A stretch of 64,000 nucleotides of DNA, taken from contig JAQTLX010000001.1 of the NCBI GenBank assembly GCA_028714695.1, positions 124,001-188,000 of the forward strand, given 5' to 3'. The position numbers were made by a program, and so were the translations under genes. The stretch is from Ignavibacteria bacterium (GTDB lineage Bacteria; Bacteroidota; Ignavibacteria; Tepidaquicellales; Tepidaquicellaceae). Below the pieces are notes generated by a model, which was not told the origin of the DNA, searched no databases, and saw only the letters and a list, made by a program, of their open reading frames with translations. Numbering within the stretch: the first letter of the stretch is position 1; every line of letters begins with the position of its first letter. This document shows positions 15,272 to 25,014 of the stretch, in pieces.

Positions 15272-15958
15272 TTAAATTAGATTTTTTACAATAACTTTTT
15301 TAATGTCTTCCGGGAATGCCTTGTCTTTAACGAAAGGCATCGGTTTATCTATTACTACTTTCACTTTTCCCGGAGTGATTTTCAGACTGTTCGGATTTAG
15401 TATTTCACTTGTGCCTGAGATTGAAACGGGAATAATATCCGCCTGCGTGAAATCCGCAAGCATGAAAATACCTTTTTTAAATTCCTGAATCTGCCCCGTT
15501 CTGCTTCTTGTGCCTTCGGGAAAGATTGCGATTGAAATATCTTTAGTAAGCATATTTGCCGCCTGCTTCAGCGACTCTATTGCGCTTCTGGCGTTTTCCC
15601 TGTTGATGGGGATATAACCGCCGAGGTACATTGCCCAGCCGAAGATGGGAACCTTCGTAATCGATTTCTTATAAATGAAACGAATATTTCTCGGAACCGT
15701 GCACATAAGAATCGGAATATCGAGATAACTCAGATGATTCGAAATTATGAGATATTTTTTATTGTCATCGAAAGACCCGCGAACGTCAACATCCATTTTA
15801 ACTCCGCAAATAATGAGCACGCTTCTTGCGAAAGTCCTGTAAACAAAATAAGTGCCTTTGCCTTTTGAAACCCAGTTTACGGGTGTGAGTATTATTGAGA
15901 GCGTTGCCAGCACAACGCCCGAGATGATAATAAGAAATAATCTGATGTAATTTATCAA
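15272..15958 (-). CDS. plsC: 1-acyl-sn-glycerol-3-phosphate acyltransferase (PlsC family)
   Basis: A 228-residue membrane-associated acyltransferase that makes phosphatidic acid from lysophosphatidic acid. The catalytic NHLSYLD (HX4D) motif lies near residues 74-80, the glycerophosphate-binding FPEGTRSR motif near 145-152, and an N-terminal membrane helix spans residues 5-25. It is the first gene of the run plsC-gatC-kdsB-pyrG-ATPase-metH. The upstream region is the repeat-rich intergenic tract, so the operon promoter should lie just beyond 15958. Confidence 0.93.
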   Translation of the reverse strand: MINYIRLFLIIISGVVLATLSIILTPVNWVSKGKGTYFVYRTFARSVLIICGVKMDVDVRGSFDDNKKYLIISNHLSYLDIPILMCTVPRNIRFIYKKSITKVPIFGWAMYLGGYIPINRENARSAIESLKQAANMLTKDISIAIFPEGTRSRTGQIQEFKKGIFMLADFTQADIIPVSISGTSEILNPNSLKITPGKVKVVIDKPMPFVKDKAFPEDIKKVIVKNLI

Positions 15959-16025
15959 ATCTATTTAACTATTTTTGAAATCGTCTTTTAATTTACGTCT
16001 AATTATTTTATGTCCTGACTTTTCA

Positions 16026-16128
16026 GTTCTTTCCCGCGGGAAATAAGAAAAAGTTTTTCTCTGTGTATCTCTGTGTCTTCGGCGCCTGCCCGCCGCCCGA
16101 AGGCTCGCCGTGGCGAGTTTGGCGGGTG
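16026..16128. repeat. GC-rich dispersed repeat, left copy
   Basis: This segment contains GTTCTTTCCCGCG followed by an A-rich run, and at 16096-16117 the hairpin-forming CCGAAGGCTCGCCGTGGCGAG. Related sequence recurs on the other side of the AT-rich island at 24009-24043 (GTTCTTTCCCGCGG, then GAAGGCTCGCCGAGGCGAG) and in part at 24121-24180. The copies are in direct orientation. Confidence 0.7.
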
Positions 16129-16220
16129 CATCTCTGTGTGTTCTCTGTGTATCTCTGTGAAACCGCTCTAGCTCCTGTTTTTCTTCTAAGTTCTAAATTC
16201 AAGATTAAATCTCTGTGACC

Positions 16221-16815
16221 CGCTTTTGTTCCTGTTTTTCTTCTAAATTCCGCGTCCTTTGCGTCCCGATGTTCTTTATCGGGATAATTTCTAGATTCTG
16301 TTCTTAAATCATTTCAAAATCTTAGAAATCGCCTTTTATTTCTTTTTGTCATTCGGCGTAAGCCGGAATTCAATTGCCGATTATCAAGATCCGCGTGTTT
16401 ACTCTGGTTACTATGTTGAAAATCAGCCTTGTATGACTCCTGCGTAGTAACCCAAAAAGTGACTGTCAGGAGTTACCTCCTGACAGAAAAGACTCCGTAA
16501 ACTTGCTCTTGTTTTTCTTCTAGATTCTAACTCCTAAATTCTAGATTCTGCTCTTTGAACCTTCTCTTGCTCCTGTTTTTCTTCTAAATTCCGCGTCCTT
16601 TGCATCCCGATGTTCTTTATCGGGATAACTCCTAACTTCTAGATTCTGCTCTTTTAACCTGCTCTTGCTCTAGTTTCTCTTCTAAATTCCGCGTCCTTCG
16701 CGTCCCGATGTTCTTTATCGGGATAACTCCTAACTTCTAGATTCTGACTCCTAGATTCTGTACTCAAAACTTGCTCTTACTCTTGTTTTTTTTCTAGATT
16801 CTAGATTCTGCCCTT
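16221..16815. repeat. Imperfect direct repeats of an approximately 90-base unit
   Basis: Three good copies lie at about 16221-16306, 16562-16651 and 16659-16747, with partial copies near 16491-16556 and 16769-16815. Each full copy contains TTCTAAATTCCGCGTCC, then a hairpin TCCCGAT-(7 nt)-ATCGGGA, then CTTCTAGATTCTG or close variants. The spacing is irregular and no open frame is conserved, so this is a dispersed intergenic repeat and not a CRISPR array. Confidence 0.75.
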
Positions 16816-16819
16816 AAAT

Positions 16820-17362
16820 CTATTTCACTATCTTCGAAATCGCCTTAAACATTTCACTTCCCGACACCTCGCACAACTCAAACAGAATCGATTCATAAGT
16901 CGAAACAATCGCGCCTTCCTGTCTCATCCTTTCAATAGCGGCTATCTTATCATTCGGATTCCTTGACGAAACGCAGTCCTCTATAAGCACAGGCTGGTAA
17001 CCCAGAGCAATCAGGTCAACCGTTGTCTGCAGCACGCACACATGCGATTCGATACCCGTGATAATAACATTCTTCTTCTTACTGCTCTTAAGCGCCGAAC
17101 AAACTTCATCCGACCCGCAGCAGGAGAAAGACATTTTCTCGATATGAGTAAAAGCGCCTACAGCATCGCTCACCGGTTGAATCGTATGACCCAGACCTTT
17201 CGAATACTGTTCCGTAACAATCATATCTATTCCAAGAACTTTAAGACCCTGAATCAGCCTTACAGTATTTTTCGTCAGGTTCTCGTTATCATGAATAAAC
17301 GGATAAAGTCTATCCTGAATATCAATAATCAAACCCGCGGTTTCATCTCTTTTGATTCTCAT
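16820..17362 (-). CDS. Isochorismatase-family cysteine hydrolase (YcaC-like)
   Basis: A 180-residue alpha/beta hydrolase. The family triad is visible: Asp14 in GLIIDIQDRLYPF, Lys76 in EKMSFS and nucleophile Cys109 in TGIESHVCV, with the usual cis-peptide region just before the Cys. Length is typical for the single-domain family. Members hydrolyse diverse amides and related substrates; the substrate here cannot be read from sequence. The gene stands alone between two repeat tracts. Base composition resembles the rest of the chromosome rather than the AT-rich island next to it. Confidence 0.88.
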   Translation of the reverse strand: MRIKRDETAGLIIDIQDRLYPFIHDNENLTKNTVRLIQGLKVLGIDMIVTEQYSKGLGHTIQPVSDAVGAFTHIEKMSFSCCGSDEVCSALKSSKKKNVIITGIESHVCVLQTTVDLIALGYQPVLIEDCVSSRNPNDKIAAIERMRQEGAIVSTYESILFELCEVSGSEMFKAISKIVK

Positions 17363-18359
17363 ATAAGAAAATGTTTTTTTGTTGTCTTCTTTGTTGTCTG
17401 TCTTTGTTCTTCTTCCTTGTCATCCCGCGCTTGTGCGGAATCTTTTTGTTTGTCATTCCGGCGAACGCGTGAGGCGGTTCTCATTTCAAAGCCGGAATCA
17501 ACGCATATTTTTTTCTTGTCATTCCGGCAAAATTCAACGAACTGCCTTGGCAGTACGTAATCCACTCTTGCTTTTTTCTTGTCATTCCGGCGAACGTCAA
17601 CGAACTGCCTTGGCAGGACGGAATCCATCAAAACTCTTTTTTATCTTGTCATCCCGAATGCTTTTATCGGGGATCCACATTATTTGAACGCCAAACAAAA
17701 AATATTGAAACGTTCCGGACCTGAAAGAATGACAACTTAGAATTGGCTTTAATTTAACCAAATTATACAATAAAAACTTCGGAAAAAAAGAGTAGAGATT
17801 GAGCCGCTAATTTACGCTAATTAAATCTAATTATGAAAATAGATCGTAAAGAATCAGCCACGGTCCCCGTTTAAGATTGGCCGGGGATGACAAAGAACTT
17901 ATGCACGAATTACACTAATTATTTTATATCTTTTCTCTGTGAAATCTCAGTGAAACTCTGTGAACCAATTTTTAAAATCTCTTATATAAACCGCCCAAAC
18001 TAATATTATATAAGTTAATTAATCCGATACAATAAACACCCGCAATAAAAATAAGCTGCTGAAAATAATCGTGTTGCTTTGGAATCACACTTGTTTAATA
18101 TCAAAAAATAATAAAAAACGAATAATAATATAAAAAAATAGTCTTGATTTTATATGATATTATTATTAATTATATTTGTAATAAATGTTATAAATAGGAG
18201 AAAATTTATAGAAACGTTTATATCAATAAATTTAGAATGAATATATTCCTACATCTCAATTTCATAATTTCCATTAAATTATTAAATATGCACATTACAA
18301 AATAATTTAGAATTTACAATTTATTACAATAATTCGATTATAAAAAAAATATTCAATAT
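17363..18359. other. Non-coding tract: palindromic repeats followed by AT-rich leader of the island
   Basis: The first 320 bases hold several copies of a GTCATTCCGGCGAA-type repeat. The next 250 bases contain degenerate repeats such as CTCTGTGAAATCTCAGTG near 17935. From about 18000 the sequence becomes extremely AT-rich up to the first island gene. Frames read through the repeat are compositional artefacts. The promoter for the island operon probably lies in 18100-18359, but I cannot pick a site with confidence. Confidence 0.75.
17417..17675. repeat. Cluster of GTCATTCCGG-type palindromic repeats, left of the island
   Basis: Copies begin near 17418, 17451, 17518, 17580 and 17647. Each starts GTCATTCCGG or GTCATCCCG and ends GGAATC or GGATCC, giving an overall inverted-repeat shape. 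Two copies contain the internal hairpin CTGCCTTGGCAG. A 39-base copy at 17579-17617 occurs in inverted orientation at 23832-23870, matching at 35 of 39 positions by my alignment. Confidence 0.8.
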
Positions 18360-20648
18360 ATGAAATATATCGAGATTGAAAAAGAAATTAAAGAAATTGT
18401 GGATAATCACCTTAATCTAAAAAGAACATTTACTGATTTGCCTTTCCAAAAACTATCATTGAAAAAAACTCATCCTCGCTCAATTAAAAAAGAATCTGTT
18501 TTTATTAATGATCCAATATTCAGGGCTTTAAGAAAAGTTTTTAATTATATATATACTGAATTCGAAAATTCCGAAAATGCGGATAATGTTTGGGAAAGAA
18601 TTTATGCTTTTCCACCAGAAGAAGAATTTCGCGATACAGAGTATAGTGATCCTTTATCTAATAAATCAACAATTGATTATATTAATGCCAGTTCTACAAT
18701 TTGTGAAAATTTTCTAATGAATCTATTACAGAAAGCGAAAGACTTACACAGAACCACATTTAGTTTAAAAGCAGCAAGTAATTTATCCAAATTTTTTGTC
18801 ATTGGTGATATTGGTATAGGTAAAACATCTTTTTTTAAATATATATATTCAAAATATAAAAATGTAATCAGAGAGAAAAAAATTTTTTGGCTTCATTTGG
18901 ATTTGAATAATCAATACCTCAGGAGACTTTCAATACCAGAAGCTATAAAGTTTGAAGTCGCCAGACAGTTTAGGAAAACTATTTACGATAATCTTTCAAA
19001 TGAAAACACTTTAGAATTCGAAAAACATTTAAAAACTTTTTTTAAATATGATATTGAAGATTTTAGCACAATATACAGAGATTATAAATCCGTTTTTGAA
19101 TATGAGCAAACCGAACCTTACAATAAGAATTTGCAAATTGGGATTATAAAATATATTGAAAAAATGTATTCTCCGATATATATAATTGATGGTCTAGATC
19201 AATTTTCAAATGGAGAAGAAATCCCACAAAAATTTGAGGATATTAAAGATATTATTTCTGATTTTAACAGATCCGGAGTATTTCTATTTATTATGCGAAA
19301 AGATACACATTTGCGATTTTTGGATAGTTATTCTGATGTAGCTAATTCAAAAACACTATCTAGGTTATCATCGAATTTTAAGAAGCTTGAGATTATTCCA
19401 GCGAAATTATTTGACATTATATTTAGAAGATTTGATTTGCTTGTAAGCGATTATGAAAAAATAATTTTGGAAAATCGAAGTAGTATTCTAAACGAAGGGC
19501 TAAATGAATCAGAATCAAATATTGAAATAAAAGCAAATGAATTGATCGAAAAATTAAAAGTTGATGATTTTAATAATATTACAACACTTAATTCTTATCT
19601 AGAAATATTTTTTATTTTTTTATATAAAGGTATTAAGCCGGAAAAGGAAATAGATTTCGATACTTGGGATATTAAAAGGGCAATTAGCGACTTCAAAAAT
19701 TTTATTGGTACTAATTTTAGAGTCTTAATGGATGCGATAAATATTATACATGATGTGTTCCTTGAAGCTCTTAGTATATCAAAAATTACAATTTCGGATG
19801 TCATTAATTTGAGTAATTTATTAAAACTTGAGAGGAGTCTATTCTTTAATAGAATAAATGATCATGCTTTAAATACTTATAAAAGTATTATGAAAAGGGA
19901 TTATAAAGTAATTCCTATGCTATTAGAAGGATATTCTCATTATTCTCATCCATATAATTATGAACTAGATTCAATAGAAGGTAAAATTGGATTATTCGAA
20001 AACAGAAGTAGCTCACGCTTTATTTATAGCATCTTTTATCCAGTTAACGTTGAAGATAAACAAGATATATATACTTTATTACTTAAAGTAAGGATATTGC
20101 AATTTTTAAATTTTAATTTAAAATCTGATATAACAGAACCAGTTTTATTAAATTATTTCAGTAAATACTTTCCTTATGAAATTAATAAAGTGAATAATGC
20201 TATTGTTGAGCTCTGTAAATCTTTATTAATCGAAATCGAAATCTTACCTGCAGGTCATAGACTACGAATAAGTAGGACTGGTGAAAATCATATAAATTTT
20301 TTGATAAAAGATTTTGGGTATTTAAGGATTATTTTAGATGATATCTTAGTTCCTTCTGGATTTGAGGAACTATTTATTGACCAGTCACCGGAATTATATT
20401 CATCTAACCGTGAACACTGGATAATCAATCAAGTACCAAGAGTCGCCCTTTTTCTATTGCTAATCAAAAACGTAGAATTTTGGGAAGAGGCCAATTCCAA
20501 AATTGCAGATTTTACGAAATGGAGAATATTAGAAAAAATTAAATCCACTGTTGTTAATAGGGTAATTAAAATATGTGTGAAACATGATATTGAATTAAAA
20601 ATATTGAAAGAATCTTTCCAAAGGAGTTTTGCAAACATTAGACTTTAA
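18360..20648 (+). CDS. P-loop NTPase of STAND/AAA type, unknown function (island gene 1)
   Basis: A 762-residue, probably cytoplasmic protein. About 140 N-terminal residues of unknown fold precede a P-loop domain with Walker A GDIGIGKTS at 149-157 and Walker B IYIIDGLD at 273-280. A following FLFIMRKDT segment at 309-316 sits where a sensor-1 strand would be expected. Beyond residue 330 the protein is long, helical and charged, with a possible winged-helix-like region around 560-660. This layout recalls STAND or Orc/Cdc6-like ATPases used as regulatory switches, but no family is recognised. The ATG has no clear Shine-Dalgarno site. The second island gene starts 75 bases downstream on the same strand, so the two are probably one transcript. 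Codon use is extremely AT-biased compared with neighbouring housekeeping genes. Confidence 0.75.
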   Translation: MKYIEIEKEIKEIVDNHLNLKRTFTDLPFQKLSLKKTHPRSIKKESVFINDPIFRALRKVFNYIYTEFENSENADNVWERIYAFPPEEEFRDTEYSDPLSNKSTIDYINASSTICENFLMNLLQKAKDLHRTTFSLKAASNLSKFFVIGDIGIGKTSFFKYIYSKYKNVIREKKIFWLHLDLNNQYLRRLSIPEAIKFEVARQFRKTIYDNLSNENTLEFEKHLKTFFKYDIEDFSTIYRDYKSVFEYEQTEPYNKNLQIGIIKYIEKMYSPIYIIDGLDQFSNGEEIPQKFEDIKDIISDFNRSGVFLFIMRKDTHLRFLDSYSDVANSKTLSRLSSNFKKLEIIPAKLFDIIFRRFDLLVSDYEKIILENRSSILNEGLNESESNIEIKANELIEKLKVDDFNNITTLNSYLEIFFIFLYKGIKPEKEIDFDTWDIKRAISDFKNFIGTNFRVLMDAINIIHDVFLEALSISKITISDVINLSNLLKLERSLFFNRINDHALNTYKSIMKRDYKVIPMLLEGYSHYSHPYNYELDSIEGKIGLFENRSSSRFIYSIFYPVNVEDKQDIYTLLLKVRILQFLNFNLKSDITEPVLLNYFSKYFPYEINKVNNAIVELCKSLLIEIEILPAGHRLRISRTGENHINFLIKDFGYLRIILDDILVPSGFEELFIDQSPELYSSNREHWIINQVPRVALFLLLIKNVEFWEEANSKIADFTKWRILEKIKSTVVNRVIKICVKHDIELKILKESFQRSFANIRL

Positions 20649-20723
20649 TTGATATTTGTTTCGAGAAAAAAATTTAAGGTGAATTATTCTAAAATTGATA
20701 CTTAGCCAATTAAAATAATATAC

Positions 20724-22691
20724 ATGAGAATTAATAAATTGTTCATTGATAATAATATTACGAAAGATTTCGGACTGAAGCCTATCCGGTTGGAAAATAT
20801 TGGAAAGGTAGTTGCTTTCTTTGGTAAAAACGGATCAGGTAAAAGTAGAATATTGGATCAATTGTCAATATATATTAGAAATATATCAGCTCATAAAATA
20901 TATTCAGATTATTTTTCAAATTTACCAAATAGGGATGATTTTGATATTTCTAAATTCGAAAAAATCTATGATCTATTAAAATTAGAAACCGAATTAGAAG
21001 AAGTAAAATATTTATTAACAATCCATAGCGAAGATACTGATCTTAAAAGGAAATTGTCTATTATTAATTCGCAAATTATGCGATTTTTGCAAACAGATAA
21101 TTCAGAATTTAAAGATTTAATTATTCGAAAAGAAAATTTTGATCAATCTATAACAAATGTAATAAACAATTATGTTAATATTATTAATATTGACGAATTA
21201 CTAAAAATAGAATCAGAACTATCTAAAAATGATAATAAATTAACTAATTTATTAAGTCACGATACTTTTGCTTATTTAGAAACCGAGGATGAATTAATCA
21301 AGCAAGGAATGATGCATTATTTAGCTGTACTTGCTAATAAATTAGCTTTGTCTAAGTTAATTTGCAAAAATAGCGATGAGTTAAAAAGTGACAAAACTTA
21401 TCGTGATTATAAGATGTTGTCTGAAATAATAAGTGAACTTATTGGCCATGAGCTTAAACACGAAATAGATCGAGGGAATTTAAAAGCAGATGTTGATGAT
21501 GTTGGGGGAATCAAGGGAAGGTTTCGAATTAATAATAGGGAGATTAATTTGAAAGAATATTCCCCTGGGCAAAAAATTCTTTTAGCGTTTTGTTTTTATT
21601 TATTTATAAAAGGTAAAGTATCGAATGCAAAATTAAAAGACAAAATATTTATTATTGATGAACTTGAGACTCATTTACATCCTGAAGTACAAATATTATT
21701 AATAGAAAAACTTAAGGAAATTATTGGGGATACTGGCCAATTGTGGATGGCGACTCATTCTATAAATATTTTATCACATCTTAATTTAGATGAAATATAT
21801 TTAGTAGAAAATGGAGAAATAAAAATCCCAGGTTCAATTATACCTGAGAAAGCATATAACGCATTGATGGGAAACAATACGAATGTCTTAAAACTAAATA
21901 ATTTTGTGCTTGATATATCAAATTGGGCTTTTTCAAATTTTATGATTCAGTGTTTTGATGATCCTAGTGTTATTATTAGCCCAAAGCCAAATGATCCGCA
22001 AATAGAACTTTTCAAAAATATCTTTAAAAATGAAAAACGGATAAGAATATTGGATTATGGATCTGGAAAAGGCAGATTATATAAAGAAATATCTAAAGAT
22101 AAAAGATTAGATGATTTAGTTGATTATGCTGCAGTCGATCAGAATAAAGAAAATATTAATTATTTAAGGAAAATCGGAATCCAAAATTCGATGAAAGATA
22201 TTGATTTATTAATTGGATTTGAATTTGATATAATTATAATGATGAATGTGTTGCATGAAGTCGATATAAATAAGTGGGAAAATATATTCAAAAGTATGCA
22301 TAACAAATTGAACGATAATGGTTTACTTGTTATATTGGAAGATAAGTTTATACCTAATGGGGAAATGCCTAACAAAATAGGTTTCCTGATTCTTGGATTA
22401 GAAGAATTGCAGAAACTATTCGACTTAAAAGAACTACCTTCGTCAATAGTTTCCAAAAGTAGCAAATATGAAGACAGATTATTATGTGCGCTTATTTCTA
22501 AAAATCAGATTGCGAACGTGAATAGAAATACTATTACAAGTTCAATCCAATGCTTAAAAAATAACAGTTTTCAGAAAATTGATGAATTACGTGAAAATAA
22601 AAATATCGAAAAAATAAAAAAAGGTCACCTTTCTGCTTTATATACTCAATTATATGTAAATTCTATTTTTGCTTTGAGAGAACTTTCTTGA
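20724..22691 (+). CDS. ABC-type ATPase fused to a class I SAM-dependent methyltransferase (island gene 2)
   Basis: A 655-residue two-domain protein. The N-terminal ABC/RecF-like ATPase has Walker A GKNGSGKS at 34-41, a helical insertion at about 55-250, the signature-like YSPGQK at 279-284, Walker B with catalytic Glu IFIIDELETHLHP at 308-320, and the H-loop ATHS at 343-346. This resembles OLD/AAA15/AAA21 ATPases of defence systems. Where those often carry a TOPRIM or nuclease domain, this protein has a Rossmann methyltransferase: motif I LDYGSGKGR at 443-451, acidic VDQN at 471-474, IIIMMNVLHEV at 503-513 and a post-motif strand LLVILEDKF at 534-542. No DPPY/NPPY or PCQ DNA-methylase motif is visible, so the target is more likely protein, RNA or a small molecule. 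The last 60 residues are unassigned. It pairs with the NTPase upstream; a joint role in phage defence is inference. Confidence 0.85.
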   Translation: MRINKLFIDNNITKDFGLKPIRLENIGKVVAFFGKNGSGKSRILDQLSIYIRNISAHKIYSDYFSNLPNRDDFDISKFEKIYDLLKLETELEEVKYLLTIHSEDTDLKRKLSIINSQIMRFLQTDNSEFKDLIIRKENFDQSITNVINNYVNIINIDELLKIESELSKNDNKLTNLLSHDTFAYLETEDELIKQGMMHYLAVLANKLALSKLICKNSDELKSDKTYRDYKMLSEIISELIGHELKHEIDRGNLKADVDDVGGIKGRFRINNREINLKEYSPGQKILLAFCFYLFIKGKVSNAKLKDKIFIIDELETHLHPEVQILLIEKLKEIIGDTGQLWMATHSINILSHLNLDEIYLVENGEIKIPGSIIPEKAYNALMGNNTNVLKLNNFVLDISNWAFSNFMIQCFDDPSVIISPKPNDPQIELFKNIFKNEKRIRILDYGSGKGRLYKEISKDKRLDDLVDYAAVDQNKENINYLRKIGIQNSMKDIDLLIGFEFDIIIMMNVLHEVDINKWENIFKSMHNKLNDNGLLVILEDKFIPNGEMPNKIGFLILGLEELQKLFDLKELPSSIVSKSSKYEDRLLCALISKNQIANVNRNTITSSIQCLKNNSFQKIDELRENKNIEKIKKGHLSALYTQLYVNSIFALRELS

Positions 22692-23034
22692 ATTTGGCTA
22701 TTTAAAATTATAATTTTTTTTAAATAATTGATAATTAAATATATTTAGTCCTTGGTTTTCTTGTTTTAAGAAATAATTGACATCCTTTTTTGGAAAGGCA
22801 AAATGCTGTAAAAGATAATTACAAAACAAATGTTATTAACCCTTAACAACTCCTTCATAATCTCCATATTATCAACTCTTTACTTATTCCTGTGGTCATT
22901 TATTGAATAATCTGAAGAATAATTTCTTATTTTTGAAGAGACAAACAGTATTTTGTCTCTGTTCTTTGAAATATTTTTTTTTACGAAAGATACCGGAATT
23001 TATTAGCGGAACATATTAATCTTCGAAAGACAAA

Positions 23035-23212
23035 ATGATACCTGAAATGATACCTCAGGTATCATCGAGTAAAAACTGGAAAAACAAATATTTATCATTA
23101 TATATCGTGTGAAATGATACCTGAATGATACCTTTTTTGAAAAATCATATAAAACTGCGATTTTGTATCGGAATCGAGTATTTTGTCATATCATGGTATC
23201 ATTTGGTATCAG
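23035..23212. repeat. Cluster of seven ATGATACC / GGTATCAT motifs (iteron- or operator-like)
   Basis: Forward copies of ATGATACC begin at 23035, 23047, 23114 and 23125. Reverse copies begin at 23058 and 23195 (GGTATCAT) and 23205 (GGTATCAG). Within each group the starts are 10-12 bases apart, about one helical turn. Copies two and three form a perfect 9-base inverted repeat around one central base. Such phasing is typical of binding sites for a multimeric protein; the function is unknown. Confidence 0.8.
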
Positions 23213-23224
23213 GTCGGTATTGTC

Positions 23225-23281
23225 ACATTTGGTGATGTTTTATCTCATTTTGTGACAAGTGTAATATCCCATTTTGTGACA
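23225..23281. repeat. CATTTTGTGACA direct repeats
   Basis: Two exact copies of CATTTTGTGACA lie at 23246-23257 and 23270-23281, 24 bases apart. A diverged copy (CATTTGGTGA) lies near 23226, and an inverted TGTCAC directly precedes it. They follow immediately after the ATGATACC cluster. Confidence 0.7.
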
Positions 23282-23538
23282 GATTGGTTTCGTTACATAT
23301 GGGAATTTCCATAAGAATTTTTCATACAGATTTACCATTCAGATTCCCCATAGGAATTTTCTTTTGGGCTTTTCAGCAGAAACATTTGAATATAGAATAT
23401 CCGACAAGGCAAAGTCTTTGCGATAATTTTTTCTGTTTTTGATTTCCGACAAAAATCCAGATTCATTTCACTCATACCGGGTGCAAATAACGCACACTCG
23501 GAAATAACAAGTCGAGTACGCAATATTCAGATGAAGAA

Positions 23539-23632
23539 AATGACATACTCAATGACATGTTCGAACCGAACTCAAATATTTGATTATCAAGTGTTTATAT
23601 TTTTAAAATGACATATTTGACACAAATGACAT
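23539..23632. repeat. Four AATGACAT direct repeats
   Basis: Copies start at 23539, 23551, 23607 and 23625, all in the same orientation, in an AT-rich setting without a credible gene. Related TGACA words continue to about 23740. Confidence 0.6.
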
Positions 23633-23805
23633 ATAACATTTTTTCTGCTGAGTATTATCTCCATAATAATAATACACTTATTTTCTTAATCGCCAAATTC
23701 CTTATGTCAAATCAGTCATTTCCTGACATATTATTGACAGGTATTTATTCAGAGTTATTTTTATTAAATAATAAATTTTATCTCAATGCGTTTTTCTCTT
23801 CCTCC

Positions 23806-23878
23806 TGGATGACCCGGAGGGTGCCCCCAGCCTGCCAAGGCAGTTCTTCGACTTTCGCCGGGATGACAAACCCGGAAT
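23806..23878 (-). repeat. Inverted copy of the GTCATTCCGG-type repeat, right of the island
   Basis: Read on the minus strand, 23832-23870 gives TTGTCATCCCGGCGAA and then GAACTGCCTTGGCAGG. It matches the plus-strand copy at 17579-17617 at 35 of 39 positions by eye. The two therefore form a long-range inverted pair bracketing the AT-rich island. Because the family is multicopy on the left side, it may also be a dispersed genomic repeat unrelated to island mobility. Confidence 0.75.
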
Positions 23879-24008
23879 ATTTTCTTCGGTTTGTTCAAAC
23901 TCGTTCTTTAATTATTTTTTGTCTCTTTCCCACGAGTAATAAAAGGAAGTTTTTGTTAGTGCTATTCGTGTTCTTATTTGTGAATGCTCTTGATCTTGTT
24001 AAGTTTCC

Positions 24009-24180
24009 GTTCTTTCCCGCGGCCGAAGGCTCGCCGAGGCGAGGATATAGAAAAGTTCTTGTTCTGAATTAGTGATAATCCGTGATAATTCGTGGCTGGT
24101 TCTTGCACTTTTTAAGTTGCCGCTCTTTCCCTTCCTTCCCGCGAGCAATAAAAAAAAGTTCTTCTCCGTGTTCTCGGTGT
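24009..24180. repeat. GC-rich dispersed repeat, right copies
   Basis: 24009-24043 contains GTTCTTTCCCGCGG and a CTCGCCGAGGCGAG hairpin matching the left copy near 16026-16117. A second, partial copy with CTTTCCC, CCCGCGAGCAATAA and AAGTTCTTCTCCGTG lies at 24123-24180. Confidence 0.7.
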
Positions 24181-24366
24181 CCTCAGTAGTGAAAATCTCT
24201 TTCTTCAAATTAGAGAAAATTCGTGCAAATTTGTGTCAGAAAGTTTCGGCTCTAAAAGTTCTTCTACTAGATTCTAGATTCTATATTCTAAATTCTCCTC
24301 TTATTGCATTTCAATTCAACCAAATTTTGAATAAATTCATGAAAATTAAAGAAAAGGACATTTCAT

Positions 24367-25014
24367 ATGAAAATCTTCATTGATACAGCGAATCTTAATG
24401 AAATAAAAGAAGCCGCGGATATGGGATTGCTCGACGGTGTTACAACTAATCCGTCACTGGTTGCCAAAGAAGAACATAAGGATTTTAAAACAATGCTCGA
24501 AAAAATCTGCGCCATTGTCGACGGCGATATAAGCGCCGAAGTCGTTTCCACTGACTGCGCCGGGATTATTAAAGAAGGAAGAGAACTCGTAAAAATTCAC
24601 AAAAATATAGTCGTAAAAGTACCGTTGATTAAGGAAGGTCTCAAAGCGGTCAAGACGCTGTCAGATGAAGGCATCAAAACTAACGTTACTCTCTGCTTCT
24701 CGCCCGCACAAGCGCTTCTGGCGGCAAAAGCAGGCGCGTACCTCGTAAGCCCGTTCGTCGGAAGACTCGACGATATCGCTTACAACGGTATGGATTTAAT
24801 CGCTCAAATAGTTCAGATTTATCAGAATTATAATTATGAAACACAGGTGCTCGTCGCATCGATTAGGCATCCAATGCATTTTGTAGACGCATGCATGCTC
24901 GGCGCGGACGTCTGCACAATGCCGTTCAAAGTTATCGAAATGCTCGCGAAACATCCGCTCACGGATATCGGACTTGAAAAATTCCTCGCGGACTGGAAAA
25001 AACTTAATTCGTAA
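24367..25014 (+). CDS. fsa: Transaldolase / fructose-6-phosphate aldolase (TalC/FSA family)
   Basis: A 215-residue cytoplasmic aldolase of the short transaldolase subfamily. The N-terminus [24 protein letters not shown] at about 25-32, the Schiff-base lysine in [11 protein letters not shown], and SPFVGRLDD are diagnostic. It would interconvert sugar phosphates in the non-oxidative pentose phosphate pathway; transaldolase and F6P aldolase activity cannot be told apart here. It reads towards gcvT, whose start is 36 bases downstream. It marks the return to normal base composition after the island. Confidence 0.93.

Follow-up and report, generated by a model that had tools for sequence, protein, structure and literature searches.

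An AT-rich island in the genome of an Ignavibacteria bacterium carries two adjacent genes, the second of which encodes a PtuA-type ATPase fused to a new enzymatic partner, a SAM-dependent methyltransferase. The gene 2 family stands alone, with no conserved neighbor, across many phyla. We give about even odds (a probability near 0.5) to the reading that gene 2 works on its own as a horizontally spread accessory gene, most likely directed against phages or plasmids, and shares a variable cargo spot with an unrelated or lineage-specific neighbor, gene 1. The initial annotation had proposed that the two genes form one two-gene system, and this proposal is not supported. Positions below refer to the window, the whole stretch of 64,000 nucleotides that was analyzed (contig JAQTLX010000001.1, positions 124,001 to 188,000); features are collected in Table 1.

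Table 1. Features of the island and of the edges of the cargo spot, in window positions
Feature	Coordinates	Strand	Basis
Isochorismatase-family hydrolase, conserved left edge of variable spot	16820..17362	-	
Left flank: extragenic repeats, then AT-rich noncoding DNA	17363..18359	.	Composition and repeat scans
Gene 1, orphan P-loop NTPase, 762 aa	18360..20648	+	Walker motifs
Gene 2, 655 aa: PtuA-type ABC ATPase (~1-370), class I SAM methyltransferase (~410-594), C-terminal helices	20724..22691	+	
Gene 2 ATPase domain	20724..21833	+	Motifs and structure match
Gene 2 methyltransferase domain	21951..22505	+	Motifs and structure match
Right flank: AT-rich noncoding DNA carrying ATGATACCT repeats and a hairpin, followed by extragenic repeats	22692..24366	.	
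Transaldolase/FSA family, conserved right edge of variable spot	24367..25014	+	

The layout described by the initial annotation, two same-strand genes in an AT-rich island between repeat tracts and amid housekeeping genes, was borne out in each respect. Both open reading frames are present where it had placed them, 75 bp apart, and their 762 and 655 codons compare with a longest chance frame of 140 codons in 200 shuffles of the region. GC content is 24-27% over 18-23 kb versus ~39% in the surroundings, and GC3 is 0.190 for gene 1 and 0.204 for gene 2 versus 0.289-0.477 in 29 neighboring genes. In codon usage, the two genes are nearer to each other than either is to the host. Genes 1 and 2 are genuine genes and foreign-looking. 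Repeat-rich noncoding DNA lies on both sides, with extragenic repeats at ~16.0-17.7 kb and ~23.8-24.3 kb, and the flanking genes are of the housekeeping type: nearest on the left are isochorismatase-family hydrolase, acyltransferase, KdsB-type cytidylyltransferase and CTP synthase, and on the right lie transaldolase, GcvT, 2-phosphosulfolactate phosphatase and FtsK.

Two repeated motifs were recorded in this noncoding DNA. Five copies of ATGATACCT occur at 23035-23133, in the AT-rich DNA right of gene 2, and one inverted copy gives rise to a 15-pair hairpin; the whole window holds six copies, versus 0.4 expected. The extragenic motif AACTGCCTTGGCAG, a portion of a longer 39-nt inverted repeat, is found at 17540 and 17603 left of the island and, inverted, at 23832 to its right, with no other copy in the window. 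A scan of 15900-24500 against Rfam returned no match.

In related genomes, the same location holds other genes. The congener G416 has matching flanks, a transaldolase gene (C268:4320-4964) and an isochorismatase gene (C268:16339-16878), around different cargo (L171:2675-6345). This cargo lies next to a transport gene cluster and includes genes for a 173-aa unknown protein, a DUF2130 protein and an OLD protein, the last recognized by the PADLOC Old model at 8.7e-68 and bearing a TOPRIM domain of the OLD type. Genome G396, from the same taxonomic family, carries genes for an NgoFVII-like restriction endonuclease, a C5 DNA methyltransferase and Vsr (L176:6392-8882) upstream of the orthologous transaldolase gene, with two more genes between; the left-flank isochorismatase gene was not found at this spot. 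In another congener, G382, the block between the flanking genes is rearranged (L172 and L173), with an inverted segment of ~28 kb that matches window 27-46 kb, and no AT-rich or defense cargo was present at either flank. Together, these comparisons show a variable cargo spot between the isochorismatase and transaldolase genes.

The description of gene 2 as an ABC/OLD-like ATPase joined to a SAM methyltransferase was upheld by Pfam matches to AAA_21 (2.8e-14, residues 30-351) and Methyltransf_23 (2e-9, residues 433-539). The ATPase half contains Walker A (GKNGSGKS, 34-41), signature (SPGQK, 280-284), Walker B (FIIDELETHLHP, 309-320) and H-loop (ATHS, 343-346) motifs, while the methyltransferase half contains motif I (ILDYGSGKGRL, 442-452) as well as NVLHE (508-512) and ED..IP.GE (539-547). 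An AlphaFold2 model of the protein had a mean pLDDT of 76.9, with values mostly above 90 in the methyltransferase and below 50 in an insert in the middle of the ATPase. In structure comparisons, residues 1-390 matched PtuA, both that of Septu and that of retrons Ec78/Ec83/Eco7, with Z 15-17 across 240-280 residues; the match to 9nnb_F had Z 17.0 (271 residues, rmsd 3.8). Residues 410-594 matched class I methyltransferases (Z 13-14), for the most part small-molecule enzymes and akin to biosynthetic N-, O- and C-methyltransferases; a shared fold does not reveal which substrate is methylated. The catalytic motifs of DNA methyltransferases ([DNS]PP[YFW] or PCQ) were absent from all 41 aligned family members, on which ground a DNA methyltransferase of the restriction-modification kind was rejected, and no nuclease domain was found in protein 2. 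Two sets of matches were set aside: those to Vibrio phages at residues 376-517, which involve large proteins lacking the ATPase half and were attributed to chance, and weak matches to Aurora kinase that overlap the SAM-binding domain.

The initial annotation knew of no named system with this pair of genes, and indeed no PADLOC (2023) or NCBIfam (June 2026) system fits it. Gene 2 itself also fits none of Septu, PARIS, OLD or MADS. Its ATPase half has the fold and motif order of PtuA from Septu and retrons Ec78/Ec83/Eco7, but in place of an HNH partner, PtuB, it has a fused SAM methyltransferase: Pfam finds no HNH domain in gene 1, the sole partner on the same strand, and the family has no common partner. 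The NCBIfam PtuA model, which is that of retron Ec78 PtuA, gave 41.7 bits, below its cutoff of 500, and the reverse transcriptase and noncoding RNA of a type I-A retron were absent from the Rfam-scanned interval, the flanking genes and the Pfam matches of gene 1. Similarity to PARIS consists of PADLOC AriA matches to the ATPase half in 41/41 members and a structure match to AriA (8v45, Z 14); however, there is no adjoining AriB TOPRIM partner, and neither TOPRIM nor DUF4435 was detected in protein 1 by Pfam or PADLOC. OLD and Gabija GajA share the ABC ATPase core, but where they have a C-terminal TOPRIM nuclease, gene 2 has the methyltransferase. Weak ATPase similarity to Mad3 of MADS was seen in 40 of the 41 members (best 2.4e-16), although protein 2 scored 21.4 bits against the MAD3 cutoff of 420, and no other MADS genes are present in the island. 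A PtuA-like ATPase is likewise employed outside Septu as PtuY of ptuXYZ; unlike gene 2, PtuY is encoded in an operon of three genes, together with DUF262 and PIN/BECR toxin partners (PMC11980606). In nearly all members, the ATPase half is recognized by the AriA and PtuA models of PADLOC; all matches to PtuA, AriA, OLD/GajA and MAD3 models are confined to this half and lie far under curated cutoffs where such exist, and non-defense ABC ATPase models also match the family weakly. No description of an ATPase-methyltransferase fusion of this type was found in the literature searched, and the main text of the DefensePredictor paper does not describe one (PMC13092281).

Relatives of gene 2 were recovered in three steps. 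A degenerate DNA pattern of the methyltransferase motif led to L034, a full-length relative with 33% identity in a prophage contig; a second motif added two more; and the resulting alignment retrieved at least 40 further relatives (L057-L096) from a scan of 84,980 species, for a total of at least 43. Forty-one of the proteins could be aligned over their length, and residues S280, G282, D312, E315, L318-H319-P320, T344-H345-S346, G448, R451, E512, E539 and G546-E547 are invariant among them. Nearly all members keep intact ATPase and SAM-binding motifs, with Walker A preserved in 40/41, THS in 41/41 and NVxHE in 37/41. Record titles assign members to no fewer than six named phyla (Bacteroidota, Pseudomonadota, Myxococcota, Bacillota, Campylobacterota and Planctomycetota); among them are L065 from Stenotrophomonas, L069 from Paenibacillus and L077 from Flavobacterium.

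The genes adjacent to gene 2 vary from member to member. Among 104 neighboring proteins, any given Pfam family appeared at most twice, and any PADLOC family at most once. Most neighbors are housekeeping genes, and defense genes are not clearly enriched in a PADLOC tally made without a matched background. Co-occurrence as neighbors in distant species was the check named beforehand for the proposed pair; no gene-1-like protein was found beside gene 2 in any of the 43 recovered loci, even with HMMER filters off, and a search of 12 gene-2-bearing genomes found none at any location. A true two-gene system, with one gene sensing and the other acting, is on these counts quite improbable, even though the two genes share strand, a short gap, foreign composition and codon usage, and lie in a spot that carries defense cargo in relatives. 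Gene 1 itself has no detectable relatives; we retain a small probability for the pair because gene 1 could be a partner private to this lineage. The result removes what would have been a misleading hypothesis.

Gene 1 had been described as an orphan P-loop NTPase, and this held: Walker A (GDIGIGKT) is at residues 149-156, a Walker B-like motif (IYIIDGLDQ) starts at residue 273 (273-280), and relatives were not detected. Protein 1 matched no family in Pfam, PADLOC or NCBIfam, the best Pfam hit being AAA_22 at an E value of 0.13, and Pfam detected no HNH or reverse transcriptase domain. A C-terminal winged helix is a guess made by eye, and a single-sequence AlphaFold2 model (pLDDT 34) was uninformative. 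No credible relative was found in some 1,400 genomes, plasmids, phages and viral contigs, which included genomes of its own phylum (296) and class (391), the 12 genomes with gene 2, and those of other phyla (296 from that of Pedobacter, 299 from that of Stenotrophomonas and 229 from that of Paenibacillus). IMG/VR was scanned twice, with peptide patterns and with a DNA pattern for IxDGLDQF, again without a credible relative. "Orphan" here means within the reach of these tools, because single-sequence searches miss very distant relatives. Five weak matches were rejected: two were frames with stops, one was an unrelated ORF resembling a protease, one ran antisense to a transporter gene and one was an ABC transporter ATPase.

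The initial annotation had further inferred a defense role. For the gene pair this did not stand, but for gene 2 it is plausible on indirect evidence: defense genes occupy the same spot in G416 and G396, the gene is patchily distributed (in one of five congeners; a Flavobacterium homologue of the L077 type used as query was found in 1 of 150 Flavobacterium genomes), members L034 and L054 are carried in viral contigs amid phage-type genes, and Septu, PARIS and OLD employ ATPases of the same type as the ATPase half. Other accessory roles would also account for the patchiness and the foreign composition. Gene 2 could instead be a non-defensive accessory enzyme, an ABC-type ATPase regulating a metabolite- or RNA-modifying methyltransferase, as the resemblance to biosynthetic methyltransferases and the predominance of housekeeping neighbors suggest; we consider this unlikely given the PtuA-type ATPase half, prophage carriage, extreme patchiness and the lack of a conserved metabolic operon around any recovered locus. 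The favored account of gene 2 as a self-contained accessory gene leaves the role of gene 1 undefined. A stronger version of it would make both genes independent single-gene defense cargos, with gene 1 a lineage-specific STAND/AAA-type NTPase and gene 2 a solitary fusion. The differing contents of the spot and the autonomy of gene 2 at other loci are in keeping with this, as is the statement in the main text of the DefensePredictor paper that P-loop NTPases are common among predicted defense proteins (PMC13092281). It is nonetheless a doubtful proposition, as gene 1 has no family match and only its Walker motifs and location connect it to defense.

PtuA/OLD-type ATPases are known to be coupled to nucleases (HNH or TOPRIM). 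Gene 2 may tentatively represent a widespread, unnamed family of single-protein defense systems in which such an ATPase triggers a SAM methyltransferase effector, not a nuclease, to methylate tRNA, protein or a metabolite. In the best-supported working model, the ATPase half would dimerize or oligomerize around ATP and sense infection, for example, by detecting DNA ends of foreign origin, changes in nucleotides or a protein of the phage; its conformational change would switch on the fused methyltransferase; and modification of a non-DNA target would stall the infected cell or the phage. We infer this division into sensor and effector, and likewise the methylated target. By analogy with Septu of E. 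coli B88, which cleaves tRNA-Tyr (PMC13096335), tRNA would be a reasonable first candidate. If true, the union of ATPase and methyltransferase in one chain would add a new chemistry to the list of effectors, and the single-gene nature of the family makes it easy to test.

In a tree of the family, phyla are mixed to some extent. Protein 2 of the window diverges from the other members, and its long branch is placed beside L057 from Bacteroidota, a join that may itself be a long-branch artifact. In one member, from a Cloacimonadota bin (L096:7461-9157), the reading frame breaks precisely at the methyltransferase motif (MMNVLHEID) into two overlapping frames, possibly through a frameshift, an assembly error or recoding.
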